NCBI GenBank assembly: GCA_030248195.1
Contig: JASAND010026191.1
Location: 1-64,000, forward strand
Origin: Trissonchulus latispiculum
Lineage: Eukaryota; Nematoda; Enoplea; Enoplida; Ironidae
Direction of reading: 5' to 3'
Length of the DNA stretch: 64,000 bases
Under the pieces are notes generated by a model. That model was given only the letters and a program-made list of their open reading frames with translations. It made no database searches and was not told where the DNA came from. The translations under genes and the position numbers were made by a program. Each line of letters begins with the position of its first letter. Positions within the stretch are counted from its first letter, which is position 1. Below are positions 33,312 to 51,040 of the stretch, in pieces.

Positions 33312-33770
33312 GTTAAAGCTATACATAATGCTAACTGTCTTTATAGTTTATGATGGCTATAACCGTAGATCTGGTGTGACAGTAACAACTTTCAGAAGCG
33401 TTGCTATTTTTAAGGCTATATCGAAGCAGAATAGCAACGACAGTGTCAAAAAGCCGGGTATCTATAGGGACAATCGTTTAAGGTGGTGGTATCCTTTTGT
33501 GCAATGCTTTTGTGGTGATTTTTTTGAAACGCTATAACTTTCGCAATTTTGGGAGTTGCAAAGAGCTTTATACATCGTTTTAAAGCTTATTATCTGTACA
33601 TTCACATGAGCGTACAGAACTGGCAAAATTAGCAAAAAAATAGCAGAATTTTTCTGACAAGCTGACATCTAACATAGACCAAAAGTTTTTGAACATCGAT
33701 TTCTCAAAACTGAAGAATCGGTCAAAAGTTCTTTTTGTGCCACGATATGAAGCACATATGGGCCGAGGGA

Positions 33771-34194
33771 AGTAGTATAGTGCGGCCGTTTCGACCTGCA
33801 ATCTTGGGATTGGCCGCGTCCCCCTTCGGGAATTAGATTCAAGGTCATTTTTATTCAAGTTAAGATTCCACCCGCTTCCTCCCTGGGGACCACAACTTCT
33901 ACAAATCCAGTCCATCCCTCTGTGTTCTTCCCCCGGGGCTTGGGACCCGGCGTCGGCCCATTACCGGACTCCTACCTACCTAATCTATACACTACCTAAT
34001 TCCTACGTACCTGCCTGACTACCTACCTAACTTACCTAAACATAATCTATAATATACACTAACCTAAGCCCGCTCCTAGTCTAATGTTTTTGTATTTTTT
34101 GTTTTATTCTTTTTTTTATTTTCTAAGTACAATATACAACATATTCATATACAACTATATACAGTAGTCCTTAAGAGGACTGTTGGGATAAGGG
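33771..34194. repeat. Left terminal inverted repeat of Polinton 1
   Basis: Reverse-complement match to 55556-56065 with indels. The outer 200 bp are nearly perfect (for example GGAGTCCGGTAATGGGCCGA on the right copy); the middle is a (CTAC)n-rich tract of differing length; the inner part includes a shared stem-loop and the phrase ATATAGTTGTAT. Confidence 0.9.
34166..34181 (-). terminator. Histone-type stem-loop at the 3' end of the leftward transcription unit
   Basis: On the minus strand: AGTCCT-CTTA-AGGACT, six base pairs with a 4-nt loop, preceded by ATCCCAAC. It begins about 17 nt after the stop codon at 34198. Size, loop and flanks resemble the metazoan replication-dependent histone mRNA 3' stem-loop. 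The matching site at 55571-55586 differs by compensating substitutions. Confidence 0.55.
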
Positions 34195-34197
34195 AGG

Positions 34198-34443
34198 CTA
34201 TTGTAGACGTTTACCCACGGCATACTCAGTCCCATCTACTAGACAAACGAATATTGTCATTGTCACTTCACTTCGAAATGGTGAAACTTTTTCTAAAATT
34301 ATTCCCACCGCCGGAATTTCAGGGTTGTTTCTAATGTAATTTTCAGCGTCCATCCGAGCCTCAGCGAATGAATCGAACACCCCTGACCCAAGTGAAGTTT
34401 CCCCATTATCAAGAATAATGCTCCAATAGTAACTGCAGTCCAT
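34198..34443 (-). CDS. Small hypothetical Polinton protein (81 aa)
   Basis: ATG start at 34443; last gene of the leftward block, 2 nt downstream of the NADAR gene stop, so presumably on the same transcript. Soluble, acidic N-terminal half, no Cys pattern or membrane span and no family recognised. The central S-FAEARMDAENYIRNNPEI helix is its main feature. Confidence 0.55.
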   Translation of the reverse strand: MDCSYYWSIILDNGETSLGSGVFDSFAEARMDAENYIRNNPEIPAVGIILEKVSPFRSEVTMTIFVCLVDGTEYAVGKRLQ

Positions 34444-34445
34444 CC

Positions 34446-34946
34446 CTATGTTTTGTGTGATTTTGGGTTTCTTCTACTTTTATTAATTTCGTCCCTTACT
34501 TTCTCCAACAAGTTTCCCAAACGATTTTCTCCTTGATATTCCTTTGTATAGGTTTCAGTTCCAGTTCCCCAATATTTTTCAAACGAATTGACAAAAACTA
34601 TTTTCTTCTCTCCAGTACTCAGTAATATTTCCCTAGCTTGTTTGTTTTGTTCAAATTTTGCTCGAATTCCTTCTAGAACGACTTTATCCTTTATTAGGTC
34701 CCATACATTTTCATCGAACCCTTTTATGTTCTTTGCGGCTTCCCTTTGACGTCTAGCGGTTTTTTCTTTTAGGATAGCTTTTCTAGTCTCCCAATCATTA
34801 AAATAAGCAGCTTTTTCACCTTCGTACCACTGCTGGACTGAGTAGTACATTTTTCCGTGAAGTCGAAAGGGACTGAAGTGAACGTTGCTTAGCGGGCAGT
34901 AGCCAGTAGAGAAAGTAGCGCAATCATTGACTATAGTTGGCTCCAT
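34446..34946 (-). CDS. NADAR (YbiA/DUF1768) domain protein
   Basis: A 166-residue ORF with ATG at 34946. It shows the NADAR signature: CPLSNVHFSPFRLHGKMYYS near the N-terminus with the following V..W.E..KA, a W-D-L-I...V...G...KF.QN...R..LL.TG core, and YWGTG...NRLG.LL...R at the C-terminus. YbiA-like enzymes are N-glycosidases. Published work links NADAR proteins to removal of ADP-ribose from guanine bases, and bacterial YbiA to hydrolysis of riboflavin intermediates. In a virus-like element a role in reversing host or competitor nucleic-acid ADP-ribosylation is attractive but unproven. It is intact, unlike several neighbours. Confidence 0.85.
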   Translation of the reverse strand: MEPTIVNDCATFSTGYCPLSNVHFSPFRLHGKMYYSVQQWYEGEKAAYFNDWETRKAILKEKTARRQREAAKNIKGFDENVWDLIKDKVVLEGIRAKFEQNKQAREILLSTGEKKIVFVNSFEKYWGTGTETYTKEYQGENRLGNLLEKVRDEINKSRRNPKSHKT

Positions 34947-34950
34947 TGTA

Positions 34951-35696
34951 CTAGAATCTTTTCAGATGTTCTTTAACGTCGTTTATGGTCTTTTCTGTTT
35001 TTATGTCTGCTTTTATTTCTGCTTTTATGTACTCCCCATTCAAGAATTTATTCTTGAAATTGTCCATTCCCTCGACCATCGATTTCCAAGTACTTTCCTC
35101 GAAATCAACTCGAAAAACCTGTAGCTCATGTTTTCTCGGAGCGTGCACAACTAGGTCGCATCTTGTTATTCCTGTAAGACTCATCATTCCCATGATTTGA
35201 TGAAATATTTATGGCGTCTTTTCAGAACAAGCTTGGTTCCCTGAGAAATTAGATAGAACCCTTTCCTTTGGAGAACGATTTCATAAATAGAACGAGGTTT
35301 GGGATTTTGGTCGAATATTGTCTTGATCTCCAAAAGCCAAGGGTCAGGGTTACCATCCTCATATACAATACCATCAGGGCTACCACCCAGCCAATCTAAA
35401 TGAGGAGGAACGCAAAAGCCTGCCGGAAGAACTCGAACTGTATAGTTCATGTGTCGAATATATGCTTGCCTCCCATCATCCTCGTAGCGGATTCCGTAGG
35501 CGCAAGCCGGAATTAATTTTCTTTCTGGATTGTTTATGCGCTCAGCAAGATTTTTGGCTGCTTTCTCGGACTTTACCATAAGAACGTCACCAAATTTTGA
35601 ACTAGTTATTCTCCCCTTCCGGTGGCTGAACCAGTTTTCGTTGTCGCTCTGGCCCAGTGTGGACAAAAAGACCTCTGTATCTATCGCCGCAGACAT
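34951..35696 (-). pseudogene. YqaJ-like viral recombinase/alkaline exonuclease (PD-(D/E)XK), frameshifted
   Basis: The first part has a TTG-initiated frame to 35708 with the first ATG at 35696. It contains W.S.RKGRITSSKFG, ACAYGIRYEDDGRQAYI, GGSPDGIV and LLEIKTIF: the conserved G-D and E-x-K nuclease motifs of the YqaJ family. At about 35190-35205 the frame shifts by one base. The C-terminal part (GMMSLTGITRCDLVV, the usual continuation after HKYF) lies in another frame and ends at 34951. Such nucleases pair with strand-annealing proteins in phage-type recombination. The break may be real decay or a base-call error. Confidence 0.8.
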
Positions 35697-35917
35697 TTGT
35701 GAAACCAAGCTTTTTTCTGTCCACAGTACCTACAGTGAACTTTTTCGTATTCGTCCAGTCTTTTATTTCTTTCCGCCCTTATTTCCTTCTGTTTAGGTGT
35801 TAAAACTATTACTCTTTTCTGGGTGATGTTTAGTTTCTTAGGTTGGGAAGTTACTTCTTTGCAATATTTAAGAACGGCGTCGACACTGTTGAAATGTTTA
35901 CCATGAAAAGAAATCAT
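35681..35917 (-). CDS. Small basic protein with a CxxC...HxxC zinc-binding motif
   Basis: A 78-residue ORF with ATG start. The C-terminus reads CRYCGQKKAWFHKC, a possible single zinc site, after a Lys/Arg-rich helix. It overlaps the start of the YqaJ-like gene by about 16 nt, as do other neighbours in this compact block. No family recognised. Confidence 0.5.
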   Translation of the reverse strand: MISFHGKHFNSVDAVLKYCKEVTSQPKKLNITQKRVIVLTPKQKEIRAERNKRLDEYEKVHCRYCGQKKAWFHKCLRR

Positions 35918-35986
35918 ACCGTGTTGCTTTCGTCGTTTTTATTGATTTATCGTTTTTATTGATTTTTTGTTGCTTTCTTTCTTTTA

Positions 35987-36352
35987 TTAATGGCACAAGC
36001 TGTGCAACAATTTTCCAGCCTCGATTCTTGCTGAATTCCATTGCAGTAACCTTTGCCACCAAGGAGTCCTTTCTTTAATAATATCAGAAATCCATTCTAA
36101 CTGTTCGTCTACTTCTTTGGGTGATAAACACTTTAATCCGATAATACGACCGTTATCATAATTTGTTTTCCAAAAATCTATCAAAACGTCTGCTTCCAAA
36201 ACGGCCAAACAGGGATCTCCAAAACAATCAGGATAAGAGAAATCTGTAGATTCAGCATCCTCAAGTGCAGCCTCTAAGGTTAAGAAATCTCTTTTACTCT
36301 TTGCAAATATCTCAATTTCCAGGTAAGTCCCAAACCAGCACCACGAATACAT
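35987..36352 (-). CDS. Hypothetical Polinton protein (about 121 aa)
   Basis: Open from 36373 (a TTG codon), but the first ATG is at 36352. It begins MYSWCWFGTYLEIEIFAKSK and is acidic with several aromatic residues; the C-terminal half has an amphipathic helix containing PWWQRLLQWN. No family recognised. It is the first gene downstream of the promoter at 36391-36455 and therefore probably heads the leftmost transcription unit. Confidence 0.55.
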   Translation of the reverse strand: MYSWCWFGTYLEIEIFAKSKRDFLTLEAALEDAESTDFSYPDCFGDPCLAVLEADVLIDFWKTNYDNGRIIGLKCLSPKEVDEQLEWISDIIKERTPWWQRLLQWNSARIEAGKLLHSLCH

Positions 36353-36390
36353 TGTGACGAGTTGTACAATCAATGAGAGCTTGAAAGAAG

Positions 36391-36455
36391 CGACCGTTCA
36401 CGATGGCAGATCAAGTCAAACTGACGAGGTACCAAGGATTTGATCGTTTATATAG
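36391..36455 (-). promoter_or_regulatory. TATA-Inr-DPE core promoter for the leftmost gene block
   Basis: On the minus strand TATATAA starts at 36454; TCAGTT has its A at 36422, that is 32 nt downstream; GGTCG occupies +28 to +32 (36395-36391). These are the textbook spacings of TATA box, arthropod initiator and DPE (RGWYV). A nearly identical 68-nt block with the same spacing lies upstream of polB at 51041-51108. The predicted 5' leader to the ATG at 36352 is about 70 nt. Confidence 0.75.
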
Positions 36456-36706
36456 ACTTCTGAGTTAGCTAATAGTTGCTTGGCTTTCCACTTACGTTGA
36501 CCGTACACGGGATGTAGTGCTAACTTTATAACATTTTGAGGTAGCTAATAGTTGGTTGTCCACCCCTCTGCGATTTTACCGGCTCACCGGAAGGGCTTGG
36601 GAACCTTCTGAGCTTTCGCCCAGGCCGCATTAATGGTTTTTGTTTTGTAATTTTTTTGTGGTTTTGTGGTTTTATAATTTTTTTGGTCCCTAATATACTA
36701 TTCACA

Positions 36707-37096
36707 CTATGTACAAGTGGTTTTTACCCCTTTTCCTTGGGGAGCCCTAAAGAGGACTGTTTGGATAGAGACGCTTAAAACGTCATAGTTGTGACTGAAG
36801 CATATCTCTGCCCAGTCGATGTTGAGAGAGTACCAACAAGGCTCAGTTCCGAGGACGGTTAGATTAACTTTTTGATCGAAAGATTGTCTGAGTTGGTCTA
36901 TCTTTGTTTTGTCAAGACATAGAAACTTTGGTGAAATAAGTGCACCTACCAAGACAGTCAGTGTAACGGCGGCAAGGGAGATAGAGCAGACTGCAATTAG
37001 TATTTTACCCCAACCGAAGGATACGCCTCCTGAGAACTCTATGGGCGGCACGTAACTGCTCTTCATTTCGTCCATTAACAATGAAGCCTTTCCCAT
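36707..37096 (-). CDS. Single-pass membrane protein of unknown function
   Basis: A 129-residue ORF with ATG start. Residues about 31-55 (WGKILIAVCSISLAAVTLTV) form one transmembrane helix, with a Cys-containing, N-glycosylation-competent (NLT) C-terminal domain, suggesting a type II orientation. Its start overlaps the TBP-like gene by 92 nt. A histone-type stem-loop falls within the last 20 codons, and a TAA in the +1 frame sits 16 nt before that stem-loop, so the final residues may be out of the ancestral frame. Confidence 0.55.
   Translation of the reverse strand: MGKASLLMDEMKSSYVPPIEFSGGVSFGWGKILIAVCSISLAAVTLTVLVGALISPKFLCLDKTKIDQLRQSFDQKVNLTVLGTEPCWYSLNIDWAEICFSHNYDVLSVSIQTVLFRAPQGKGVKTTCT
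36743..36758 (-). terminator. Third histone-type stem-loop copy
   Basis: Minus strand AGTCCT-CTTT-AGGGCT (one G-U pair), preceded by ATCCAAAC and followed by CCCCA, close to the CCAAA and ACCCA flanks of metazoan histone stem-loops. It is probably the 3' end signal of the MCP/protease/TBP transcription unit, just upstream of the next promoter. Confidence 0.5.
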
Positions 37097-37541
37097 TGTG
37101 AAACATTCGTACTTTTAGACCGAGACTAGTGAATGTAATGCCGGAGAAAAGTTCAGGTTCAATAGCTGCGTTGTCTAGCCATTTATGCATAGTCGGTAAA
37201 TCCACTCTCCGGTCAAAGGTGAATGAACCGACCATGTTTACAACCCTGTAGCTGGATACTCCAACTCCGAGTAAGTTTGCAACTTCCTGAATAGCATTTT
37301 CTGCTTCTTCTTGCTTTTTAGCCCCCAGACAATTGAAAGTTCCTGTTTTGAATATAACAAATGTAACGGGATCCCACCTTAGAGAAGCCCCACTGAATTT
37401 TTGAGGATTGTACTTGACGCCAGGAATTGTACTGAGGTTGATAGTTTGGTCAAATTTCCCACTGAGCACAATATTTTCAATTTTTAACTCAGACATGGTT
37501 TGTAAAAAATTATTGTTAAACGTAGAAATTTCCTCCCTCAT
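37005..37541 (-). CDS. TATA-box-binding-protein (TBP) homologue
   Basis: The frame is open to 37598, but the codon there is GTG; the first ATG is at 37541. The protein is two imperfect repeats of a TBP half-saddle. Repeat 1: NIVLSGKFDQTINLSTIPGV, then YNPQKFSGASLRW, FVIFKTGTFNCLGAK, and a C-terminal helix. Repeat 2: YRVVNMVGSFTFDRRVDLP, then IEPELFSGITF, VRMFHNGKGFIVNG, and a helix. These correspond to cellular TBP motifs IQN(I/M)VGS, YEPELFPGLIYR and F.SGK.V.(T)GAK. TBP nucleates transcription at TATA boxes. A virus-encoded copy could select the element's own promoters, which have strong TATATAA boxes. The gene sits between protease and a membrane protein. Confidence 0.8.
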   Translation of the reverse strand: MREEISTFNNNFLQTMSELKIENIVLSGKFDQTINLSTIPGVKYNPQKFSGASLRWDPVTFVIFKTGTFNCLGAKKQEEAENAIQEVANLLGVGVSSYRVVNMVGSFTFDRRVDLPTMHKWLDNAAIEPELFSGITFTSLGLKVRMFHNGKGFIVNGRNEEQLRAAHRVLRRRILRLG

Positions 37542-37585
37542 TGAAGGTTGAGTACTACGCAGAGTCTCGTTCCTGATTGGGTAAT

Positions 37586-38002
37586 TTACCTCAGACACTC
37601 TACAAAGCTTTTTACAATTTCGTCGTTTTTCGAAGGTCGTTCTCGAAGAAAGGAGATTATGTCTTCGAAGGAAATCCCTTTATCCCGGTGATAGATAAAG
37701 TAGATGCAGTACTCACCACAGACGAAAGTGGTATAATCTTGTAAGCGAACCGGGTTATGTTTTTGCAATCTGTCGTACTTATCAAACTCTTTAAGTGGAG
37801 GTCGGCCGTAGCTGTCGAAGTACTCAGCGTAATCTTCTAAATACATCGCAACCCAGTGCTGCCCAGGAAGTTGGCAGGGGTCGGTGTTGGCTACGAAGCA
37901 GCTTGGTTCATGGTGAATTTCAGGAAGGTGGTCAATGGGAAAGACTCCAACGAAATTTTGGACGAGAGGACCTAGTGTGTTTTCAATTTCTAGTGTATTC
38001 AT
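37586..38002 (-). CDS. PRO: Adenovirus-like maturation cysteine protease (adenain family)
   Basis: 138 residues with ATG start, overlapping the MCP stop by 4 nt. NTDP...GQHWVAM carries the catalytic His (His49), EYFDSYG the acidic residue (Asp63), LQDYT the oxyanion Gln, and VCGEYC the nucleophile (Cys95). Length and motifs match the Polinton PRO family (C5). It cleaves virion precursors, probably the pVI-like and other capsid proteins encoded next to it. Intact. Confidence 0.92.
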   Translation of the reverse strand: MNTLEIENTLGPLVQNFVGVFPIDHLPEIHHEPSCFVANTDPCQLPGQHWVAMYLEDYAEYFDSYGRPPLKEFDKYDRLQKHNPVRLQDYTTFVCGEYCIYFIYHRDKGISFEDIISFLRERPSKNDEIVKSFVECLR

Positions 38003-39246
38003 ATGGCGTAATCAAAGAAAGGTGTGCGATTATAGTCGATTGAGACAAGGTTATCAAACTCCCCGTATATAATGATTTCAACCCCCTGAGGATAGCTTGT
38101 AGCACTCAACGCCTTACTCAGTTCCATCCGCAGAGAGACGTCTCCCTCTCGAATTAACTGCATGGCGCCGGTGTCTGTGTTATCCGGGGTCAGATCAAAG
38201 GCGAAGAAAGCGTTACCATCTTTAAAATCGGCGTAGCTAATGTAGCACCCTTTATCATCCCCTGCCATATCGATAGCTTCAAAAAGAAAAACAAAAGGGA
38301 AGGTGTACCCCCGAGGTTTTGAGAAGTCAATTTTCATGGGTTGTCTAGGAATGTATTCGTCCCCACATTTTAGACTAATTTCGGTGATGTTAATGGTCTC
38401 CAGGGTCAGGGGGTCAGCTGTCAGAGAACCGTTAAACGCCTCAGACTTGACTACCCCGATAATCACCTTTCTAGGAAGTTGGCCAGTGAATATAGAATTT
38501 TCGACGATGGTTTGTACGCCTGCGCTCAGATGTCTAGCCACCACCTTAGTTCGTCGGATGGGGTATTTAGCAGTGTTACCTTGGGAAAGAATATTTTCAA
38601 TAGCGAGAGACATAGAGTCTTGGCACTTAACCTTTCTTACGTACCAGCGCATGTCCTCAACCTTTACTTTGCTGCTTCCCTGAGAACTGAGACAGAACTC
38701 ATCGGGATTTCGGTGCAGCTCAATAGTCAGTTGACAGTCGCTTAGGAGGTACTTTTCTTGCTTAAACAGGTCGCAGTGGATAGGTGCCATAAACTCAGCG
38801 GACTTTGTTGCCACCCAGGTGCCCCTTGTACCGGAGTCGAACTCGTAGCCGGCAGCCTGTAAATGGCCTTCTTTTGCATTGCGAGAATAGTTTAGCATAG
38901 TTTCAATGTAAGCCTGGTATGCGTAGTGGGGACCCGAATTGTAAATTTCCTTGTCTGAAAGTTTGACTATGCAGCGCTGGAAAAAGGTTTTGCCGAAAAG
39001 GTTAATGGGAGTCCCAGCATCGCCCTCAATTTTAACCCTAAGATAAAGGTAATTTTTGTTCAGATCGAGCATGTACGAGTCTTTAGGAACGTTGAATCGG
39101 TAAGGGCCCGAGTCTGTAATTGGATTTTGGGGACCGATTTCCGCCCAGTACCCGTGCTCTACGGCGACTTGAGTAGGTGGGACAGAGAATAGGTCCAATT
39201 CCGACTTGAACCCAGGGAGAGATCGTGAATCAACTTGCTTAGTCAT
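37999..39246 (-). CDS. MCP: Major capsid protein (double jelly-roll hexon)
   Basis: 415 residues with ATG start (MTKQVDSRSLPGFKSELDLF). Clearly homologous along its length to the 445-residue protein at 60221-61558 of the second Polinton: shared blocks include VPKDSYMLDLN.NYLYL, VKLSDKEIYNSG, HCDLFKQ.(K/R)YLLS(D/E)CQL, PIRRTK(V/L)V.RH, VENSIFTGQLPR and YPQGVEIIIYGEFDNL at the C-terminus. This is the Polinton/adintovirus MCP family, related to adenovirus hexon. Intact and without frameshift. Confidence 0.93.
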   Translation of the reverse strand: MTKQVDSRSLPGFKSELDLFSVPPTQVAVEHGYWAEIGPQNPITDSGPYRFNVPKDSYMLDLNKNYLYLRVKIEGDAGTPINLFGKTFFQRCIVKLSDKEIYNSGPHYAYQAYIETMLNYSRNAKEGHLQAAGYEFDSGTRGTWVATKSAEFMAPIHCDLFKQEKYLLSDCQLTIELHRNPDEFCLSSQGSSKVKVEDMRWYVRKVKCQDSMSLAIENILSQGNTAKYPIRRTKVVARHLSAGVQTIVENSIFTGQLPRKVIIGVVKSEAFNGSLTADPLTLETINITEISLKCGDEYIPRQPMKIDFSKPRGYTFPFVFLFEAIDMAGDDKGCYISYADFKDGNAFFAFDLTPDNTDTGAMQLIREGDVSLRMELSKALSATSYPQGVEIIIYGEFDNLVSIDYNRTPFFDYAI

Positions 39247-39262
39247 GCTTAGTCGTGCTTAG

Positions 39263-39676
39263 TTATGTGAATATATCTAAATTTTGTTTCGGTGGTCTAC
39301 CTCGTCCACGTACTCCTTTTATGTTGTTAGCTCTAGGTCTTTGACCGATACCTTCACCTTGTTGAATATGTTCACCTGCAGCGGTTAATGTCTCACCAAG
39401 AAACTGTTTACCTCTCCGTTTTGCAGCTGCTTTTATGTCTTCACCTTGGGTTACGTCTGATGCTAGTGCTAATGCGTTTTTTGCTAGACTTTTGCCTGCA
39501 GATAGACCGACTCGTTTAAGAATTGGAAGTGCGGCTCTAAATAGTCCCCGGAATATGTTGCCTAACCCTGCTCCTCGTTGGTACGGAAGCCCCGCGTATG
39601 CAGGAAGCGCCCCACCAGTTTGAAGTAGGGTTAGCTCCCAAGTATCTTGAGTCTCGGGTATGTACTGGCAGCGCAT
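39263..39676 (-). CDS. pVI-like small virion protein
   Basis: 137 residues with ATG start. Homologous to 61589-61975. The N-terminal part has Q(R/T)G..YAG..YQRG.GLG then an amphipathic FRGLFRAALPILKRVGLSAG segment; the C-terminal part has a conserved IQQGEGIG.RP motif and basic tail. Gly-Gly/Gly-Leu-Gly steps resemble adenovirus-protease sites. In adenoviruses pVI is a membrane-lytic, protease-activated cement protein; the assignment here rests on position and amphipathic helix. Confidence 0.6.
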   Translation of the reverse strand: MRCQYIPETQDTWELTLLQTGGALPAYAGLPYQRGAGLGNIFRGLFRAALPILKRVGLSAGKSLAKNALALASDVTQGEDIKAAAKRRGKQFLGETLTAAGEHIQQGEGIGQRPRANNIKGVRGRGRPPKQNLDIFT

Positions 39677-40449
39677 TATCGTCGCCTTCTGAAGTGAAGC
39701 TTAACGTAAACTTTTCCGAATGCAAATTGTACAGGCCTCCCCGCATCATCGTTTATATTGATTTCTACAGTATCGAAGTCTTTGTGAAGGACAGGGACGT
39801 AATGTGGATTGTGGTATTCCTTATTTACTACCGCCCCATGAGTTCCCTCTGTTGTAACTACCCGAATTAGAGGTACCAGTGCGTTTCCTATAACTTGAGG
39901 AGCCACCAGGTCGCAGTAAACGAAGAGAGAGTAGAAACCTAGTCTAAGATCAGGTTCAGACTCAGCTACGAAAATTATTTTGTCATCTACTGGATCACCG
40001 TCCCTTTGCATTGGGTCGGGGTAGTAACCTAACATCATCCAGAGATTTTTGCTTAACTTAACGGTATTGGGAAAGGTCTTTGGTATTGAAAACATTACCC
40101 TGTGCCTATACCCATCGAATCTAAATTTAATTGGTGCTCTCTCGCCTGTGACGGGGTGTTCCATGTTGAGTATTGTGAAATTAATTGCATCACATAGGTC
40201 GTCCACTGTTTCGTAGTGTCGTTTAGGTAGGAGTTTAACCATTGAGGTCTTGTCAGGAAACTTAAAGGAGACGGCCGAGTTAGCTGCAGAAAGATTACCC
40301 CAAGTCACTGGATACATCATTTCTACGAGAGCAACTTCCCACTCACCCTGTAATTTAATTCTATGAGGGAGCTTAACCCGGTAGTCATTTAGAGAGTTGG
40401 TTTCGAAGTCCCCCGTGTTACTGGGGAGGAACATATAGAAATCCGTCAT
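39676..40449 (-). CDS. mCP: Minor capsid protein (penton, single jelly-roll)
   Basis: 257 residues with ATG start. It begins MTDFYMFLPSNTGDFETNSL and has KLPHRIKL.GEWEVALVEMMY, then a C-terminal NPHYVPVLHKDFD...I.I.DD.G..V.F..GK.Y.KLHFRRR block shared with 62723-63487. It matches the Polinton minor capsid family. Its start overlaps the integrase stop by 32 nt and its stop overlaps the pVI-like start. Intact. Confidence 0.9.
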   Translation of the reverse strand: MTDFYMFLPSNTGDFETNSLNDYRVKLPHRIKLQGEWEVALVEMMYPVTWGNLSAANSAVSFKFPDKTSMVKLLPKRHYETVDDLCDAINFTILNMEHPVTGERAPIKFRFDGYRHRVMFSIPKTFPNTVKLSKNLWMMLGYYPDPMQRDGDPVDDKIIFVAESEPDLRLGFYSLFVYCDLVAPQVIGNALVPLIRVVTTEGTHGAVVNKEYHNPHYVPVLHKDFDTVEININDDAGRPVQFAFGKVYVKLHFRRRR

Positions 40450-41473
40450 TTTCTGATATCCAACTATTGAACTTATCTGGATAGCCTAACCACTTGACAA
40501 AGTACTCTTTCCTTCTACCCCGCTTCCGAGTTTTTATTACCTTTTCAACCCAATAAGAGTCTGGTTTATCTACTTTTTGTAACTCTTCGGGATAGAATAG
40601 ACCCTGTATTGGTTCATTGGCTAAGTCTTCAAGTTCGTACATTCCGCTTGGGTGAACCGACTTTATTTTGAAAAGTTCCTCTGACCAATTTGGTAGGTAG
40701 CCTTTCTCAAATCTCCCTTTAGTCTTACTTATTCGAACAATGTCCCCTATCTTAAACTGCTTGCTTAACCTGTTGCTCTTTCCTAGGAATATTTCTCTAA
40801 CTCTTGCCTCATTCTCTGGCATCGAAGCCTCAGTTGGGGTCATTTTAGTTGTACGGTGCTTTGAATTGTTATAGCCACTTACGAAACTTTGGAGAACGTC
40901 TAGGTATCTATAGCTCCTTGTCCGCGTAAAATACTTCCATATTTTTGTCTTCAGGGTTCTGTTAAAACGCTCAACTATGCTGCATTTTATGTCTGGGTTA
41001 TTGCAGGTGTAGTAGCGAATTTCCTTTGATTTTAGTAACTGTTGAAACTTTTTATTCTGGAATTCTTTCCCTCTGTCACTTAACACTTTCTGGGGTTTAC
41101 GTCCTTGAGATAGGATGTTCTCGAACGCTGCAGTGATGTCAGCCCCCGATTTAGTTTTTACAGGCTCTACCCAGGCATACTTACTGAAGCCATCTATACA
41201 GGTGAGTAGAAAGTGGTAATCGTCATTTTGGTCAGCTAGGGTTGCCATGTCTGCTAAGTCAATTTGCCACTGCTCATCAATATCATGGAATACGTAACTA
41301 AGGTGGGGATACTTTCGCTTTATTGGTTTGTGGACAGAGTAGGTATACTGCTTTCCCAACCACCCTTTGACCCGTTTTTGAGAAATCCCTGCTGCTTTTG
41401 CTAAAGTGTTTATCCCGGAAAACGCTGAAGGTTGGGTGGGATCGTAATATAATTTGGTTAGAAGGTCTTCCAT
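40418..41473 (-). CDS. INT: Retroviral-type integrase with C-terminal chromodomain
   Basis: 351 residues with ATG start. The catalytic core has Asp72 (WQIDLADM), Asp133 (KVLSDRGKEF) and Glu168 (CSIVERFNRT), the DD35E arrangement. After an SH3-like region (FKIGDIVRISKTKG) comes a chromodomain (about 305-345) with YWVEKVIKTR...EYFVKWLGYPDKFNSW. The N-terminal zinc-binding region is degenerate. It inserts the element with a 6-bp duplication. Intact, and nearly identical at the C-terminus to the second Polinton's integrase. Confidence 0.95.
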   Translation of the reverse strand: MEDLLTKLYYDPTQPSAFSGINTLAKAAGISQKRVKGWLGKQYTYSVHKPIKRKYPHLSYVFHDIDEQWQIDLADMATLADQNDDYHFLLTCIDGFSKYAWVEPVKTKSGADITAAFENILSQGRKPQKVLSDRGKEFQNKKFQQLLKSKEIRYYTCNNPDIKCSIVERFNRTLKTKIWKYFTRTRSYRYLDVLQSFVSGYNNSKHRTTKMTPTEASMPENEARVREIFLGKSNRLSKQFKIGDIVRISKTKGRFEKGYLPNWSEELFKIKSVHPSGMYELEDLANEPIQGLFYPEELQKVDKPDSYWVEKVIKTRKRGRRKEYFVKWLGYPDKFNSWISENDGFLYVPPQ

Positions 41474-42165
41474 TTTAGTTTCGCCAGTGCTTTACTGAAG
41501 TTAAAATGTTTCGGCTTACGTTCTGTACCTTTTCGTCTTCCAACCTTTGTGCGTTTTCGTTTCGTTTTGTCGCTTGTTGTTTTAGGTTGATTTACGTAGC
41601 GTCCCGTTCCAAACTGAAGTCTCTGCCTTACTCTTCGTATCCGTTCAACCGTGTCGGTTATCGAAGGAGTACCTTTTATTGCTTCCCAACGTTGGCGATT
41701 GCCGATAAACTCCCTTGGGACGTTACTTTCCCTTAGAGCCTCAGCAAACAATTCCCAACCCTTAGCGGGAGAAACAGTTTTACGATTGCGGACAAAGTCA
41801 TGGATTAGGTCGAAGATTCTAGAACCCGGCTCAGATTTACCTTTATACTCTATCTCACCTTTCTCGTTTACTTTGAAGTCAGGAATAGATTGGACAAAGT
41901 TAATGAGGTTTTTTCCTTTACTTTGGAGAGTTATAGGTAGAGTGGAAACGATGTCGGGAAGAAACTGTTCGGTGGGTTCGGTAGTGGTTATATCTAACTT
42001 ATAGGGCTTTTCCTTCAAGAACCGCCTTCTGTAATTAGCTTGTTGGTACTTTTTTAACTTTGTGTCGGCAGATTCTTTGCCTTTTAACTTCTCTACGACA
42101 TCTTTCTCTAGAATTTCTTGGTGCTGATCGAACTCTTCAGGTTTTACTAAGATTGAGTACTCCAT
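41458..42165 (-). CDS. Conserved Polinton protein of unknown function
   Basis: 235 residues with ATG start. The stop overlaps the integrase start by 16 nt. The N-terminal helix is charged, the middle holds DFVRNRKTVSPAKGWELFAE, and the C-terminus is strongly basic (KRKRTKVGRRKGTERKPK), suggesting nucleic-acid binding or nuclear import. I do not recognise it as a named family; position between integrase and the pX-like gene suggests a virion or morphogenesis role. Confidence 0.6.
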   Translation of the reverse strand: MEYSILVKPEEFDQHQEILEKDVVEKLKGKESADTKLKKYQQANYRRRFLKEKPYKLDITTTEPTEQFLPDIVSTLPITLQSKGKNLINFVQSIPDFKVNEKGEIEYKGKSEPGSRIFDLIHDFVRNRKTVSPAKGWELFAEALRESNVPREFIGNRQRWEAIKGTPSITDTVERIRRVRQRLQFGTGRYVNQPKTTSDKTKRKRTKVGRRKGTERKPKHFNFSKALAKLKWKTF

Positions 42166-42499
42166 TATTTTATAAAGCTACTTGCAATACCACTGACTAT
42201 CCCAATTAGCGGACCGAGGAGAGCGGGATAAAGCCACCCTTCTGAACTATAATTTGCTTTTTCTCCTTAAGTTTTACTTTCTTATCTCTCAAAGTTCGTA
42301 ATATATTCACGTGTTTGCGTAGAGCTCTTTTGTCTGCTTCAGTTAGTTCAACGTTTCCAGAAAGTACGTTTTCAATACAGTCTAGGATTGTTCGAATTAG
42401 ACTAAGATCGCTGCTTTCAATGATAGCTTCTCTGACCTTTTTCTTACAGTTGCAGAGATGTATGAGACAGGGAAGATTACTTTCAAATCGTTTAGCCAT
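42165..42499 (-). pseudogene. Adenovirus pX-like core protein, frameshifted near the C-terminus
   Basis: The frame starting at the ATG at 42499 gives 97 residues ending IVQKGGFIPLSSVR. A basic, helical protein with the terminal QKGGF.P motif followed by a hydrophobic tail is typical of Polintons and resembles the adenovirus pX C-terminus. Here the expected hydrophobic tail (LLGPLIGIVSGIASSFIK) is in another frame, beginning around 42225, and ends at a TAA that overlaps the next ATG (TAATG) at 42163-42167. The overlap supports that as the true end, so one base is lost near 42225. Confidence 0.6.
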
Positions 42500-42553
42500 T
42501 TTGCGTTTTTATTGATTATCAATGCTATTATCGGATTGTGGGCACTTGCGTTT

Positions 42554-43204
42554 TTATTGATTCTTCCCCGTTTTTATTGATTTCGGAAGGTAAACTCCGG
42601 TTCGATCGAAAATATCTGTCCTAAGCCTGTACTGCTCTGGGGTTTCTTGGTCGAGGTCAATTAAGAGGTAACCATGGGGTTTTGAGGTTGCGTGGTTAAA
42701 AGATTCCATAAAGTAAGCGGTATTAGTTGGAAACATTTGTCGGGCTAGATTCATTGCCGTAAGCTTATCTGCTGGATTTTTCATCAAAACTATGTATTGG
42801 CAGTTTATCCTGTTAGTTCTTTGTTTATCATAAAATAGGTCCTGGGTGATGTGTATGACACTGCAAGACCAGTGGTGGCATCCCCGGGTGAACAGCCTAA
42901 TCAGTTAAGAGTCCTTTTTTACTTCATCCATGAGGTCATCAAGAATTAGTAAAATCGGTTCTGTATTCCCTTTTAGTTGCACCAAGTCAGGCAAACCCTC
43001 AACAAACTCTGCATTAATTTTTTCGTAGGCCGCCTGCCACTCGGTAAAACACCAAATAACTCGTTTCGGGGGAGGTCTTATCAGTCTGTGTGCGTTTTTG
43101 ACAAGTTTTGACACGAATGTAGTCTTTCCTGCTTTAGTCGGTGCGGAAACCATGCAAGTAAAGGGGTGTTTAAAATACAGAAAGTCACAAGGAATACAAG
43201 TCAT
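42554..43204 (-). pseudogene. ATP: FtsK/HerA-type genome-packaging ATPase, interrupted by one stop
   Basis: ATG at 43204. Walker A APTKAGKTTF at residues 21-30, Walker B ILLILDDLMDE at 83-93. The frame stops at TAA 42905-42907. Codons downstream remain open in the same frame and carry the family's FTRG.HH and ITQ(D/N)LFY motifs, through YLLIDLDQ near the C-terminus, ending at 42554. A single nonsense change has disabled packaging, unless it is a sequence error. The ATPase normally pumps DNA into capsids built from MCP and mCP. Confidence 0.9.
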
Positions 43205-43598
43205 TGAGTTCGCTTTTTGTGAGATAGATAGGTCCGAGGTAAGCGCTTTCTATGTTTTTATTGACGTCAAGACAAATCTGGAAATTGTACACCTCTGAAA
43301 TGAAAGGGCAGTGCTTAGCCGAGGCGGTTACACAACTCCCAATAGAGCACTCGAAGTATAGGTCAAGAATTGCATTAAAGTGGGATGGAGAGTAGTAAAC
43401 ATATTGCCCTTGTTTGGAGATCCGTATCCTTCCGTCTGTTTGGTCGTCTAAACGAAGTGGCTCCTTACAGCTTGCGGTCCAAAGCCAAATATTTAAAGAA
43501 ACACTGACTAGAAAAGCTAGGGTGAGTATGACACTAAAACCCCACTGGAAAATATCCTTGGTTGGGCTCATTTTGCAAGTCTCAGAATTCTGCTTCAT
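43185..43598 (-). CDS. Small type II membrane protein with Cys-rich ectodomain
   Basis: 137 residues with ATG start. Residues about 20-41 (FSVILTLAFLVSVSLNIWLW) form a membrane anchor. The C-terminal domain has six Cys. It overlaps the ATPase start by 20 nt and is the first gene of the leftward structural block, next to the central divergent region. No family is recognised, but its layout resembles the membrane protein at 36707-37096. Confidence 0.55.
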   Translation of the reverse strand: MKQNSETCKMSPTKDIFQWGFSVILTLAFLVSVSLNIWLWTASCKEPLRLDDQTDGRIRISKQGQYVYYSPSHFNAILDLYFECSIGSCVTASAKHCPFISEVYNFQICLDVNKNIESAYLGPIYLTKSELNDLYSL

Positions 43599-43654
43599 AA
43601 TTTTAATTTATGTTCACAGTTTTTATGACGTCATCATATTTTCTATTTATTCAT

Positions 43655-43940
43655 CTTCCCTGGGGCCCATAACCGACGCCACATAATTACCCCCCTGGGA
43701 CCTTTTTCCAAGTTATTTTCTAAGCTTACCATCTGTCACCCCATGGGACCGAAAACCGACGCCACATAATTGCCCCCAAGGGACCTTTTTACCAAAGTTT
43801 TTTCTACGCTTGCCATATGTTATCCCATGGGACCGAAAACCGACGCCACATAATTGCCCCCAAGGGACCTTTTTACCAAATTATTTTCACGCATACCATC
43901 TGTTACCCCATGGGACCGAAAACCGACGCCAAAAAGTCTA
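43655..43940. repeat. Tandem repeats (about 82-87 bp) in the central divergent region
   Basis: Three to four copies of a unit containing CATGGGACCGAAAACCGACG, CCACATAATTGCCCCCAAGG and GACCTTTTT. Related phrases (TGTCGGCGCC, CCCTTGGGA, TTTTGATTGAT) continue on the other side of the gypsy insertion at 50895-51030. The region separates leftward genes from rightward polB and may hold regulatory or replication signals. Confidence 0.8.
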
Positions 43941-43988
43941 ACTTAGCATCCCTTGGGGAATACCTGTCACTTTTGATTGATGACCCAG

Positions 43989-44180
43989 TGTAATGAATTA
44001 AGTAGAACGGAACTCAAACCAAAAAACTATAAAAAGACGTTCTTATGTATTTTTGGTGATATGATCGGCCGCTTGTGAAAAACGTATACACATGTATATC
44101 GCCTGATTGCCTTGCTCTGATTTTGGTTTCTTGTTGTTGACTAAACTTCATATCCGAGCTTAGAGGTTTCCAACATCACA
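43989..44180 (+). repeat. 5' LTR of the gypsy element
   Basis: 192 bp with a TATA-like CTATAAAAAG at about 44026. The LTR is followed after two bases by TGGCGAGGCTGCC, which starts with TGG as a primer-binding site should; I cannot name the tRNA. Confidence 0.93.
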
Positions 44181-44383
44181 ACTGGCGAGGCTGCCAGGAT
44201 ACCTGGCTCTTGGTTGTGCGGATTGATTGGAGTTATTGTCAATTGGGAATGGATGCTATTTCAATTCTGGAATTGGAATCTCTTTACAACTGCTAAATCC
44301 GGTGGAAAACTGAAGATTGCTTATCCGAAAGACAGAGCGACGGACGATAGAAGAACTCACTAACAGAAAATATTTCGTGGGAA

Positions 44384-44396
44384 ATGTTTCATGCTG
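44384..44396 (+). promoter_or_regulatory. Leader mini-ORF and splice donor for the third ORF
   Basis: An ATG at 44384 is followed by exactly four codons and then a consensus donor GTAAGT at 44396. Joining phase 0 here to the acceptor at 49302 would place the ATG in frame with the NADAR-SGNH ORF, which otherwise lacks an upstream ATG. Confidence 0.5.
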
Positions 44397-44462
44397 TAAG
44401 TGAATAGTTGCAAGTTTAAATCTAGGTAGCCATGAGAAATTTATACATCATAAAATCAGTAT

Positions 44463-45596
44463 ATGCCTCGTCGTAAGATAGGATTGCGAGAGTTGAAATC
44501 ACTTAATTTGGATAATTTATTTCCTGAATCTTCTACTTCCGATTCAGATTCAGATAGTAGTGCAAACAATCCAGAACAGGGGTTGAGTGTGGAAATGGCT
44601 TTTCAAAATCAAGACTTTTTACCTCTGCTCAGCTTAGCTACTCACGGTTTAAATCCGTTGAAAGGGGACGCCGACCAAGATTTGAATGAGTATTTTTCTA
44701 ACTTTGACCGTGTTGTTTTATCAAATGGCTGGAATGACAATGATGATGCAAAAAAACGTATGCTTCTAAGAGTCTTAACCGGACGAGCTGCAACAGTGTT
44801 TGATACGTTTCCGGAAGCTGTTAAAAATGGCACGTATACTGACATAAAGCAACATTTGTTAAACAAACTGACTTCTGTCGGCGATCAAGCGATTTATTGG
44901 AATAAATTGCGCGAACGCCGACAAGGAGAAGCTGAAAGTGTAGAGGATTTCAAAACAGAATTGCTTAAGTTTGCTAAAAGAGCTGAACCAAACAAAACTT
45001 ACGATGAGCTGCAGTCAATGGTTAAAAATCACTTTATGTACCAAACCCGTCCTGAAATAGCGAAAGCGCTTCTTAGACGAGACCACCCTACTTTGGATTC
45101 TGCTGTTGAGGCCGCGAAGAGGCAAGAATATGTCTTGTCCGCTTTCCCAGATCCCCAAAACGCAGTAAAATTACAAGTAAACGCGCTAGTCACGCAAAAT
45201 GAAAAAATTGTATCTGCTCTCAATGATATTCAAGGCGCTGTTGCTAAATTTAGTGGAAACCACGCAACAGGAGAAAAAGTTTGTGCACTCCAAACTTCGG
45301 ATTTACACGACCAGCAGTCCTCCGAATTAGCAGCTATCAAAAAGGAGATGAGTGAAATTACAAGACGCTTGGATAACTTGACCATGCGGAAAAGTACTGA
45401 AATTCGGTGCTACTCTTGTGGTTGCATCGGACATATTGCACGTTCGTGTCCGAACGCGAATGCTTCGACAAATACTCGAGGCCGCATGCGATCTTCCTTT
45501 TCCTCTTTTAATGACAGTGGTACAAGGGATTACCTCGGAAACAGAAGTTTGGGAAATGGGAGACAGCCGCCTCCGGGGGACCGAGGCGGCTGGTAA
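44463..45596 (+). CDS. gag: Gag of the gypsy element
   Basis: 377 residues with ATG start. The capsid-like region (about 60-230) contains LRERRQGEAESVEDFKTELL and downstream helices. A zinc knuckle CYSCGCIGHIARSC lies at about 318-331, then a Ser/Arg/Gly-rich tail. The stop TAA at 45594 directly follows a GC-rich hairpin that belongs to a -1 frameshift signal. Intact. Confidence 0.92.
   Translation: MPRRKIGLRELKSLNLDNLFPESSTSDSDSDSSANNPEQGLSVEMAFQNQDFLPLLSLATHGLNPLKGDADQDLNEYFSNFDRVVLSNGWNDNDDAKKRMLLRVLTGRAATVFDTFPEAVKNGTYTDIKQHLLNKLTSVGDQAIYWNKLRERRQGEAESVEDFKTELLKFAKRAEPNKTYDELQSMVKNHFMYQTRPEIAKALLRRDHPTLDSAVEAAKRQEYVLSAFPDPQNAVKLQVNALVTQNEKIVSALNDIQGAVAKFSGNHATGEKVCALQTSDLHDQQSSELAAIKKEMSEITRRLDNLTMRKSTEIRCYSCGCIGHIARSCPNANASTNTRGRMRSSFSSFNDSGTRDYLGNRSLGNGRQPPPGDRGGW
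45551..45592 (+). promoter_or_regulatory. Programmed -1 ribosomal frameshift signal (gag to pol)
   Basis: The heptamer G GGA AAT (45551-45557) has the X XXY YYZ form in the gag frame. After a 6-nt spacer come CAGCCGCCTC (45564-45573) and its exact complement GAGGCGGCTG (45583-45592), a 10-bp hairpin with a 9-nt loop. The -1 frame is open from about 45512 through pol. All elements sit at textbook distances. Confidence 0.85.
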
Positions 45597-45652
45597 ATAA
45601 TTGCGGAAAGTCGCTCCCCAATAGCAATTCTATTTGTGATGTATGTATAGAT

Positions 45653-48600
45653 ATGTGTCTAAGAGTTAATTCTGTTAGTAGTACTTTGTCGGAAACATCA
45701 GCACCATTTTTGGTTGAATGCTCGATAGGAAATTTGGTTACCAAAACTTTGATCGACACCGGCTCCTCGATTAGTTTACTATCTCTAAAATTCTTCAATT
45801 CGTTGCCCCAAAAACCGCCGTTACAAAAAGCCTGTTGCAAACCTATTGGGGTTACCGGGGATCGACTTCGAGTTGTCGGAGTTGTCACTTTGCCAGTAGT
45901 TCTGGGAGAGGAAAAGTTTATGATACCTTTTGTTGTAGTAGCCGCAATGACGTATGACTGCATTGTAGGCATGAATCTTCTTCAAAATTATAACTCCTTT
46001 TTAAAATTTAGGTCTAGTCTCCAAGGTAAATCTGATTCCTCAAGTTTACCTTCAGTGTTGAAACCCAACCTTTCTTATGCTGTCACAGGAGTTTACCTTA
46101 GTGACTGTGTAACAATACCCCCTTTCACGGAGGCAATTGTTCGGGGAAAAATTTACGATTTGCCCAGAGGTGGAGAACTTTATTTTGAACCAACATTGAA
46201 GATACGTGGGGCAAAACCGGAAGCTGCTGCCGTTTCACCCATGAATGGGAAAATTCCGGTTCTGATAAATAATGGTACATGCAAACCAATTAAACTTCGT
46301 AAGGGTACCTGTTTAGGAACAGTGGATAACTCTATTTTGTCAATTAATTCCGTATCGACTGGTACAGTACCTCAAACCACTGATTCTAGGGTCGGAATAT
46401 CTGAATCGTCACGACTGCCGGTTGGGGTTTCCCTGACTGAAGCAAAAACTACGTTGCAGTCACATGAAATTCAACAATTGGAACGTCTTCTTCGAAAACA
46501 TCAGCACTTATTTTCTAAAAATGATCAAGATATTGGCAAAACCCATTTGGTAGAACACACCGTCGATGTGCAAGGGAGTTTCCCTATAAAGCAACAGTAC
46601 TACAGAATAGGGGAACACGGACAGCAAATTGTTGAGAAGCATGTGAACCAGATGATGAAAGATGGTATAATCAGGGAATCGTGCAGTCCATGGGCATCTC
46701 CGGTAGTCATAGTAAAGAAAAAGGACGGCAGTGATCGTTTTTGTGTTGATTTTCGGAAGGTAAACTCTCTAACGAGGAAAGACACTTTCCCATTGCCCAG
46801 GATCGACGAAAGCCTAGATGCCATGGGAGGGGCCAGCTACTTTAGTACTATGGACTTATCTAGCGGATACTGGCAGATAGGCATGGCGGAAAGGGATAAG
46901 GAAAAAACAGCATTTGTGACTCGTAACGGCCTATTCGAGTTTAACGTCATGCCGTTTGGTTTGACAAATGCTCCTGCTACCTTTCAGCGGCTAATGGCAA
47001 CAATTTTTAAAAAATATTTGTATAAGTTTTGCTTAGTATATTTGGATGATATTATAGTCTATTCCAGAACATTTGAAGAACACTTGAATCATTTGTTGCA
47101 AATCTTTCAATGTTTAAAAGAAGCAGGGCTTAAACTCAAGGGGCGCAAATGCTGTTTTGCTAGAGCGGAAGTACCCTATCTAGGTCATGTGGTTTCACGC
47201 TCAGGGGTTAAGCCTGACCCTTCTAAACTTACCGCCATCGCCAACATGCCGGCGCCATCAAATGTTCACGAAGTTAAAAGTTTTTTAGGGCTAGTACAGT
47301 ACTATCACAAGTTTGTACCAATGCTAGCAAGCATAGCTTCCCCTATTCATCGGCTGCTCAAAAAAGGTGTGCCATTTCTCTGGTCAGCTGATTGTTCTAG
47401 AGCTTTCGCCACTTTGAAAACCTTACTCACACAAGCGCCCATTTTGGCCCTGCCAGATTTCAATGAGCCGTTTATAATACAGACTGATGCAAGTGGGCAC
47501 GGTATCGGTGCCGTGCTAATGCAGAGAATAGACGGTAAGGAAAAGGTCATTAGCTACTTGAGCAAAAGCTTAACAGACGCAGAATCCCGCTGGTCAACAA
47601 TAGAGAGAGAGGCGTTTGCTCTAATTTGGGCTGTTCGCAAATTCCGCCCTTACATATACGGGCAAGCTTTCACTGTTGTTACTGACCATAATCCATTAAC
47701 GGCGTTTCGTTCACTAAAAAGTCCCTCTCCTAAATTGCAGAGGTGGGCTTCAGAATTTCAACAATATGACGGATATGCAACTATAGTTCATCGTCCTGGC
47801 AAATCTAATGCGAACTGTGACGCTCTATCGAGGTTACCGATACCGATACCTGAATCCTCTGAACACAACTTTGTGGCGGCAGCTGTTGCTGTGGATTTTC
47901 CTGAAGAATGGAGTAAGGACATGCTTTCAAACGAACAAAAGCGGGACCCGTTTTGCATAAAACTTTGGAGCCGCATGCAAGGTGATAGCGTAGCATTACC
48001 TAGGGGTATTTCAGCAGCCCAATTCACAGTTTACGACGGACTCTTGCATAGGAAATCACGCAGAGGTGGTGGTAGGTTAGTTATTCCTGAGAATCTGCAG
48101 AGGACTTTACTTGAGCAGACACATGATAGGAAGGAATCTGGACATCTTGGTTTCCAGAAAACGTTTGGCCGATTAGTCAAAAATTATTATTGGCTAAGCA
48201 TGCACAGAGATGTGCGGAACTGGTGTAGGTCATGTCCGATTTGCCAGGAATTGAAAGGACCAGTTGGGAGAGGAAAGGCACCACTACAACCAATTCCTGT
48301 AGCGGGACCCTTTGACAGAGTAGGAGTAGATATAATAGGGCCGCTACCTCGCACTCGACGGAAAAATCGCTATATTGTTGTGTTTGTCGACTACTTTTCG
48401 AAGTGGCCGGAGGCATTCCCGGTAAAAAGCATAGAAACCGAGGTTATAGCGAAACTTTTCGTCGAGGAGGTAGTTGCTCGTCACGGCTGCCCCAACGTGC
48501 TTCTTTCTGACCAGGGATCATCCTTTACGTCAAGGCTCATGAAGGCTGTAGTTGAAATGTTGCGTTGCAGGAAGGTACAAACCACTGCATATAGGCCCCA

Positions 48601-49135: not shown

Positions 49136-49302
49136 ACACAAACGCCTAATTTTTCTGTATTCATCTAGTATTAATTTGTTTTGGACATTATTTTATCTTA
49201 GTTCACTTTTTTATTTTCCTTAACCCTTCAGTAAAACAACGCAAATTTAACCGAGGTGTCCTGACCTCTTTAGCAAGGTTAAATAAATTTGCATTGTTTT
49301 AG

Positions 49303-50373: not shown

Positions 50374-50689
50374 TCTGATGTTTGTGGGTGACCTGACCCT
50401 TAAGAAGCAAACACTGTCAGATTACTGTTCCAGACGTTTTTTTTTGACTGCAGTTAGATATAATGTATGCTTGTTTAACAAATGTTGTCTTGGTGTCTAC
50501 GGGTGTCATGTACTATTTTTGCCATATAATATTTACTAATTGAAGTTATAAGAACATAGAAGAACAAAGATAATTTCTCTTAAGTCCTAGCACAGGGGTA
50601 AAATTGTTTAAATTTAACCACGGCTACCTAGATGCAACTAATCACTTCCAATAATTAAGCCGTTATGAATTAGGAATCAATCCTGTTGT

Positions 50690-50702
50690 GGAAAGGGGGG
50701 AG
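50690..50702 (+). promoter_or_regulatory. Polypurine tract of the gypsy element
   Basis: GGAAAGGGGGGAG lies immediately before the 3' LTR start at 50703, the expected site for plus-strand DNA priming. The spacer 50374-50689 between ORF3 and this tract has no other feature. Confidence 0.9.
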
Positions 50703-50894
50703 TGTAATGAATTAAGTAGAACGGAACTCAAACCAAAAAACTATAAAAAGACGTTCTTATGTATTTTTGGTGATATGATCGGCCGCTTGTGAAAAACGTA
50801 TACACATGTATATCGCCTGATTGCCTTGCTCTGATTTTGGTTTCTTGTTGTTGACTAAACTTCATATCCGAGCTTAGAGGTTTCCAACATCACA
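50703..50894 (+). repeat. 3' LTR of the gypsy element
   Basis: 192 bp, read as identical to 43989-44180. Followed by Polinton sequence resuming at 50895 (CCCACACTGTCGG). Confidence 0.93.
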
Positions 50895-51040
50895 CCCACA
50901 CTGTCGGCGCCTTTAATCTTAGTCGCACCTGTCAAATTTGATTGATGACCTGTCACTTTTGATTGATTACCCCCGCTGTCGGCACCTTTGATCTTTGCCC
51001 CTTGGGACCCGTAAGCACTCCCTTGGGAATTAACAAAAAC

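Follow-up and report, generated by a model that had tools for sequence, protein, structure and literature searches.

Does a Polinton carry its own TATA-binding protein (TBP), and what could such a protein do for the element? The question is raised by an open reading frame (ORF) in the window, the whole stretch of 64,000 nucleotides of Trissonchulus latispiculum DNA analysed here, which a sequence-only reading had taken for a TBP homologue. It is virtually certain, in our judgement, that this gene is the TBP of a Polinton.

A TBP gene inside a complete Polinton insertion

The gene lies in a single Polinton insertion that is complete, bounded by inverted repeats and by a target duplication of 6 bp (Table 1). 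The repeats (33771-34038 and 55798-56065) are 97% identical over 268 nt and end in AGTAGT. According to PMC8097293, vertebrate Mavericks most often end in a doubled AGT. The Polinton setting that had been proposed for the gene was upheld by these repeats, by GAGGGA on both sides, by an integrase with chromodomain, by a weak capsid match and by DNA polymerase B (PolB). Pfam matches of the capsid protein and of the packaging ATPase are under the cut-off, and Adeno_IVa2 is not the best of the four weak Pfam matches of the latter. The names penton and PRO are putative, assigned mainly by position; homologues of the penton-like protein were found in loci L009, L020, L022, L024 and L086. As neither PolB nor the packaging ATPase has an uninterrupted frame, the window insertion, taken as a whole, is probably non-functional.

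Table 1. Features of the Polinton insertion and its flanks, in window coordinates.
Feature	Coordinates	Strand	Basis or remark
Left target-site duplication GAGGGA	33765..33770		outside left inverted repeat
Polinton, 22,295 bp including nested retrotransposon	33771..56065		inverted repeats and target duplication
NADAR-domain gene	34446..34946	-	Pfam E 2.6e-33
YqaJ-type recombinase gene	35184..35696	-	Pfam E 3.9e-12
Promoter-like site with TATATAA followed by TCAG, preceding the 35987-36352, YqaJ and NADAR genes	36421..36454	-	A of TCA 32 nt downstream
ORF of 129 aa, overlapping the end of the TBP gene	36707..37096	-	directly after PRO where TBP is absent
TBP homologue	37005..37541	-	Pfam PF00352 E 8.3e-28; 178 aa as ORF
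Stretch missing from L082-L085 (approximate; breakpoints vary by some bases)	37018..37585	-	alignment to window
PRO, putative adenovirus-type protease	37586..38002	-	position and sequence-only reading; weak Pfam Peptidase_C5, E 0.11
Major capsid protein, double jelly-roll	37999..39246	-	weak Pfam match E 0.0047; many genome copies
Penton-like minor capsid protein	39676..40449	-	name by position; no Pfam match
Retrovirus-type integrase with chromodomain	40418..41473	-	Pfam rve 2.2e-14, Chromo 9.1e-9
Packaging ATPase, IVa2-like, frame interrupted	42557..43204	-	weak Pfam Adeno_IVa2 E 0.0091; tblastn with open L009 relative
Gypsy-type retrotransposon, nested, not part of the Polinton	43987..50894	+	194-nt identical LTRs
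Second, similar promoter-like site, ahead of zinc-finger and PolB genes	51042..51077	+	TATATAA; A of TCA 32 nt downstream
DNA polymerase B (PolB), frame interrupted	52797..55553	+	Pfam DNA_pol_B_2; tblastn with open L025 relative
Right target-site duplication GAGGGA	56066..56071		outside right inverted repeat

The product is a two-lobed TBP core

The claim that the ORF holds both TBP repeats was borne out: PF00352 matches its product with 96.5 bits (cut-off 22.9) in two stretches corresponding to the two lobes, and the three motifs first pointed out (VVNMVGSFTF, IEPELFSGITF and HNGKGFIVNG) are all present in the translation. The gene is read from the minus strand, the plus-strand reading having many stops. 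In a sequence search of the PDB, 35 of the 39 matches up to E 10 were TBPs, with E of 8.4e-6 or better and 2z8u as the best (E 7.7e-16); the remaining four had E 0.41 or worse. The true start is probably the second methionine, at position 37496, since most related copies begin there, which would give a protein of 163 aa, a bare TBP core. Eight of eight further representative Polinton TBPs also match PF00352 with two stretches.

The expected TBP saddle was predicted by AlphaFold (pLDDT 90.5, pTM 0.81) when the window protein was aligned with 24 other TBPs, cellular ones included; as a single sequence it gave no good model (pLDDT 42.3). In a fold search with the aligned model, the best 44 PDB matches were all TBP structures, with a TM of about 0.8, and the best match in a library of viral structures was the TBP of Heterosigma akashiwo virus 01 (HaV01).

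TBP genes occur in several Polinton families of the same genome

We searched the genome (734 Mb, 21,732 contigs) in two ways. The TBP family search started from 1271 first-look candidates and found a match in each of the 150 scored; the search with the window protein, for which 150 of 827 candidates were scored, gave 152 matches. Joined, they yield at least 253 distinct TBP-like places, two of which are exons of the host TBP. The at least 251 others are a lower bound for TBP-like matches, Polinton context being shown for a sample of them: integrase, capsid, ATPase or PolB genes of Polintons were present in 19 of 20 neighbourhoods sampled from the matches of the family search, the exception (L023) being a 5-kb stretch at a contig end. 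The conservation in other Polintons that the sequence-only reading looked for thus holds within this genome. It is hardly conceivable that the assembly is at fault here, or that a host TBP gene just neighbours a Polinton: inverted repeats and a target duplication enclose the gene, the host encodes its TBP in a spliced gene of contig C14517, and the TBP copies are spread over many contigs.

Neighbourhoods were read for five families, A (that of the window) to E; the L058 and L062 families are known as TBP ORFs only. The proposed position next to PRO is found in families A and E, where TBP follows PRO, but not in the other three. In family B, TBP lies beyond the ATPase gene on the other strand; in family C the order is NADAR, TBP, capsid gene, and in family D integrase, TBP, capsid gene. 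Fused ORFs were also seen, NADAR-TBP in L026 and TBP-penton in L025. By profile search, a TBP ORF was identified in 57 of 60 loci, the exceptions being L023, L042 and L066; on iteration the profile drifted to penton proteins via the fused L025 ORF, and those rows were left out. The presence of an intact-looking TBP in the window element, and of TBP in many related ones, suggests that such elements supply some of the machinery that switches their genes.

Presence of the gene varies between related elements. At least 20 of 82 window-type capsid places (identity of 82% or more) have a listed TBP within 6 kb, and in 19 of these it is always on the same strand, 461-531 nt downstream. Four further window-type elements were read among the other 62 (L082-L085); in all four the TBP stretch is cleanly missing and PRO is directly followed by the 129-aa ORF. 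At least two window-type capsid places (C301 and C5547) stop at a contig edge on the TBP side. Among 35 full-length capsid rows of family C, a TBP is listed for at least 22. In family E, with only 59% identity between the capsid proteins, TBP occupies the corresponding position, and loss rather than gain therefore seems the more likely course in family A, although counts of this kind cannot prove the direction.

The gene is maintained by selection and looks old

Open copies of the Polinton TBP appear, from their substitution patterns, to be under purifying selection in several families. Median dN/dS was 0.11 in family A (74 of 78 pairs usable), 0.16 in B (16 of 21), 0.12 in C (10 of 10), 0.19 in D (2 of 6), 0.14 in E (9 of 15) and 0.18 in G, the L058 family (3 of 3). 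These sets contain open-frame copies only, a choice that biases the values down; we judged this bias insufficient to produce values of 0.11-0.19 at a median dS of 0.3-0.7.

In a first tree (LG+R4, 73 rows), all Polinton TBPs fell on one side with 83% support. A mixture-model tree was made from 41 of these rows, long, odd and near-identical ones, L025 among them, being dropped; it joined families A, E, G, L062, B and C in one group (99/99) and left family D on a long branch of unsure placement. A single clade of all 22 Polinton TBP rows was not rejected by the AU test (p-AU 0.297). The grouping of family C with eukaryotic TBPs, chosen after the first tree had been viewed, was rejected (p-AU 0.009). 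On the strength of these trees and tests, TBP looks like an old gene of these Polintons and not a fresh host copy.

Outside this genome, a single-sequence protein search gave no relative at E <= 0.001. A search with profile A1 gave 42 matches, all with PF00352, of which the few named ones were cellular or from a bacterial assembly. Among viral contigs, none was confirmed in scans with the A1 (TBP) and A2 (integrase) profiles or with the TBP of family C.

These data bear on the view that TBP is a passenger, taken recently from the host and of no use to the element. Such a view could appeal to the window-type capsid genes, most of which have no TBP listed nearby, and to its absence from the four elements read. 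It is nevertheless very unlikely given the dN/dS of 0.11-0.19 among open copies, the occurrence in five families with read neighbourhoods, the PRO-TBP order shared with family E in spite of a capsid protein only 59% identical, and the rejected grouping of family C with eukaryotic TBPs, even if that grouping was picked after the first tree. Rather, the TBP core appears complete and kept by selection in several Polinton families.

DNA contacts and most TFIIB contacts are kept and the basic patch is mostly lost

We scored single positions in 30 Polinton TBPs, under their assumed residue numbers and roles. Both minor-groove asparagines and the intercalating phenylalanines 1, 2 and 4 are present in all 30, and the third intercalating position is aromatic in 29 (F in 22, Y in 7, with L in one). 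The first TFIIB-contact acid, E284, is acidic in 24 of 30 (23 Glu, 1 Asp) and the second, E286, in 30 of 30 (27 Glu, 3 Asp). Family C, whose TATA boxes are the clearest seen, has Thr at the first acid.

The picture is different for the basic patch of the N-terminal lobe. Four helix positions are basic in 2, 8, 2 and 6 of the 30 Polinton TBPs, compared to 11, 12, 11 and 12 of 12 reference TBPs, taken as eukaryotic by sequence. A fifth position is kept in 12/30 versus 10/12, and a sixth, at 5/30 versus 2/12, is uninformative. Most of the patch thus appears, at the level of sequence, to be lost. According to PMC7221094, the two acids are the TFIIB site of TBP and a basic N-lobe cluster is the common site of TFIIA, TAF1, Brf1/2 and Mot1; we infer that the helix columns scored here equal the positions of that cluster.

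A TFIIB search of the genome (six of six candidates scored) gave one match, a 57-aa open frame on contig C20553, which is absent from both TBP match lists. None of the 20 window ORFs scanned matched TFIIB, in a search that a very divergent TFIIB could escape.

Another possible use of the saddle is to bend DNA as an accessory for replication, integration or packaging, the transcription machinery not being engaged. TBP-lobe folds also exist outside transcription, and in families A, C and D the TBP gene is set amid those for integrase and capsid proteins, as would suit such a role. We consider it improbable, for it leaves the conserved TFIIB acids unexplained.

TATA-like promoters of the elements

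The sequence-only reading had also described TATATAA boxes at a suitable distance from an initiator. Two such sites do exist in the window element (from 36454 on the minus strand and from 51042 on the plus strand), sharing TATATAA, a middle block and TCA, with the A 32 nt from the first T; as a general rule for the element's genes, the pairing did not hold. A 33-place pattern of this promoter had 78 matches in the genome with up to two mismatches, and its reversed control had none. The promoter core was present in 14 of 17 window-type flanks examined: in 11 of 13 with TBP (not L069 and L070) and in three of four elements read without TBP (not L082). Since three of these four TBP-less elements keep it, the TATATAA promoter appears to be independent of a TBP gene in the same element. 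In L071, L075 and L076 the core is common and the flanks upstream of it are unlike; the first base of the TATA box differs in these three and in L072.

Over the window element and 20 neighbourhoods, we found nine TATA-initiator pairs, four of them in the window element, versus 5.5 expected, hence no enrichment. Within 200 nt upstream, a TATA box was found for just five of the 18 genes in the window element; those for TBP, capsid protein, integrase, ATPase and PolB are not among them.

In word counts covering 100 nt upstream of the genes, the top octamer was ATAAAAAC in family A (5 of 18 genes, about 0.29 expected) and in family B (4 of 14, about 0.06 expected), and TATAAAAG in family C (4 of 9, about 0.07 expected). 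A TATA-like octamer thus ranked first in three of the four families examined; family D showed no upstream TATA motif, as judged by both patterns and 7-/8-mer counts. The seven upstream patterns scored at first were post hoc, having been picked after the upstream sequences were viewed; the 7-/8-mer counts covered all words in the same genes, from one element per family and two for D. Other 7-mers stand beside the TATA-like words in rank, for example TGGCTGA in C and GCCTGAT in D. In family A, AATAAAAAC may be a polyadenylation signal, an explanation that fits CATAAAAAC in B and TATAAAAG in C less well.

In family C, TATAAAAG lies at -34 to -42 from start codons in six of seven loci. TATAWAW was found within 100 nt upstream of 4/11 ORFs in L015, 4/7 in L018, 6/9 in L019, 4/7 in L021, 1/10 in L026, 3/6 in L027 and 3/10 in L028, counting ORFs of 105 aa or more, chance ORFs included. 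In L021, most of the boxes are nearer to the start codon than in the other family C loci.

The same observations must be weighed for an interference factor, which would compete with host TBP for TFIIB or for promoters and so damp host transcription or silencing of the element, instead of driving the genes of the element itself. TFIIB contacts that are mostly kept, together with a regulator patch that is mostly lost, would suit a competitor too; some elements have no TBP gene, and the TATATAA promoter persists whether TBP is there or not. On the other hand, the DNA-contact residues, kept in nearly all copies, would be superfluous for a pure TFIIB decoy, and in three families the octamer that ranks first upstream of genes is TATA-like. 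We regard interference as unlikely.

A possible role in transcription of the elements

We infer, as the best reading of the sequences, that the element may bring its own promoter-recognition factor. Once made, the Polinton TBP would bind the TATA-like boxes of the elements and present the usual stirrup to host TFIIB, so that host RNA polymerase II would be loaded there. Without the patch used by Mot1, NC2, TFIIA and TAF1, it would escape the control exerted on host TBP. It may also work in trans, on elements that do not have the gene. We find it reasonably probable that Polinton TBP acts in this way, loading host TFIIB and RNA polymerase II at the elements' TATA-like promoters outside host TBP control.

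A more speculative extension, which we put forward tentatively, is that the TBP of each Polinton family is matched to its own TATA variant ([C/A/G]ATAAAAAC in A and B, TATAAAAG in C). The families would then use parallel promoter codes that all lead to one host TFIIB and polymerase, are out of reach of the regulators of host TBP and are shared in trans among elements with and without the gene.

An animal-type transposon with a general transcription factor of its own, present in many copies and several families, would mean that Polintons do more than borrow host promoters. The elements would also offer a natural set of diverged TBPs, seemingly made for host TFIIB, unlike those of giant viruses. 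With such a set it becomes testable which TBP surfaces act in loading and which in control, and in what way transcription of the elements begins.

Comparison with known systems

The window-type elements share with animal Polintons/Mavericks the AGTAGT-ended inverted repeats, the 6-bp duplication, the rve integrase with chromodomain, the double-jelly-roll capsid protein, PolB and accessory genes, and differ in adding a TBP gene to the accessory set. Neither TATA nor TBP occurs in the main texts of PMC11071308, PMC10120064, PMC4642659, PMC7805220 and PMC12721341, the main text of PMC8097293 on Mavericks has no TATA, and PMC12220804 has TATA in its reference list only. In the full-text literature searched, outside which most subscription papers lie, we found no Polinton or Maverick TBP.

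TBPs are known from other virus-type genomes. TBP comes up in work on mirusvirus-derived elements (PMC10675990), and own TBPs are found in mirusviruses (PMC10132985) and giant viruses (PMC12085832, PMC11464507), among them HaV01, Chrysochromulina parva virus BQ1 and megavirus. The Polinton resembles these in being a virus-type genome with its own TBP, and giant-virus TBPs, like those of Polintons, keep the DNA-contact residues. They differ at the protein contacts. PMC7221094 describes divergence of viral TBPs both at the TFIIB acids, with about 40% kept at the first, and at the basic cluster, whereas the Polinton acids are mostly kept (24/30 and 30/30). According to the same paper, almost all TBP-bearing viruses also have a TFIIB-like protein, a pairing that differs from the situation here, where no TFIIB was found with the Polinton TBPs and the single genome match is on a contig that neither TBP list names.

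Cellular TBP and its relative TRF2/TLF have in common with the Polinton protein the two lobes, the saddle (predicted here) and a core of 160-180 aa. Compared to cellular TBP and its paralogues, the Polinton TBP is without the long N-terminal extension and has mostly lost the basic patch of the N-terminal lobe. TRF2/TLF has lost the intercalating phenylalanines; in contrast, the Polinton TBPs have kept them.

A second Polinton and repeats around the first

The first Polinton adjoins a second one, of family B, whose TBP gene lies beyond the window (contig C17742, 67175-67663). In this family-B neighbour, the TBP and capsid genes are on opposite strands. At two further loci of the same genome, TBP is part of a fused open frame, joined in one to NADAR and in the other to the penton-like protein, a minor capsid protein named by position.

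At window 42499-42599 (- strand), within 100 nt 5' of the 97-aa ORF, AATAAAAACG occurs three times and may be promoter-like or a polyadenylation signal. The array of ~84-nt units is possibly a regulatory region.

Features in and around the window and at loci L025 and L026
Feature	Position	Strand	Remarks
Second Polinton, family B	window 59754-64000		continues on contig C17742 to ~68 kb
Tandem array, three copies of ~84 nt	window 43658-43931		upstream of capsid-strand genes of first Polinton
Dense tandem repeat, unit ~25-27 nt	window 57189-57809		TTGGGTGACTATTTTGATCC-like; between the two Polintons
Third ORF of nested Gypsy-type retrotransposon	window 49357-50373	+	after pol; NADAR domain
NADAR-TBP fusion	L026:3061-4017		open frame
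TBP-penton-like protein fusion	L025:6813-8027		open frame

A NADAR gene in the nested retrotransposon

The NADAR domain in the third ORF of the nested retrotransposon was recognized with E 2.8e-27, and the same ORF gave a weak GDSL-lipase match. Compared to the NADAR protein of the first Polinton, it shows 23% identity over 142 residues. To our knowledge, no other retrotransposon carries a NADAR gene.
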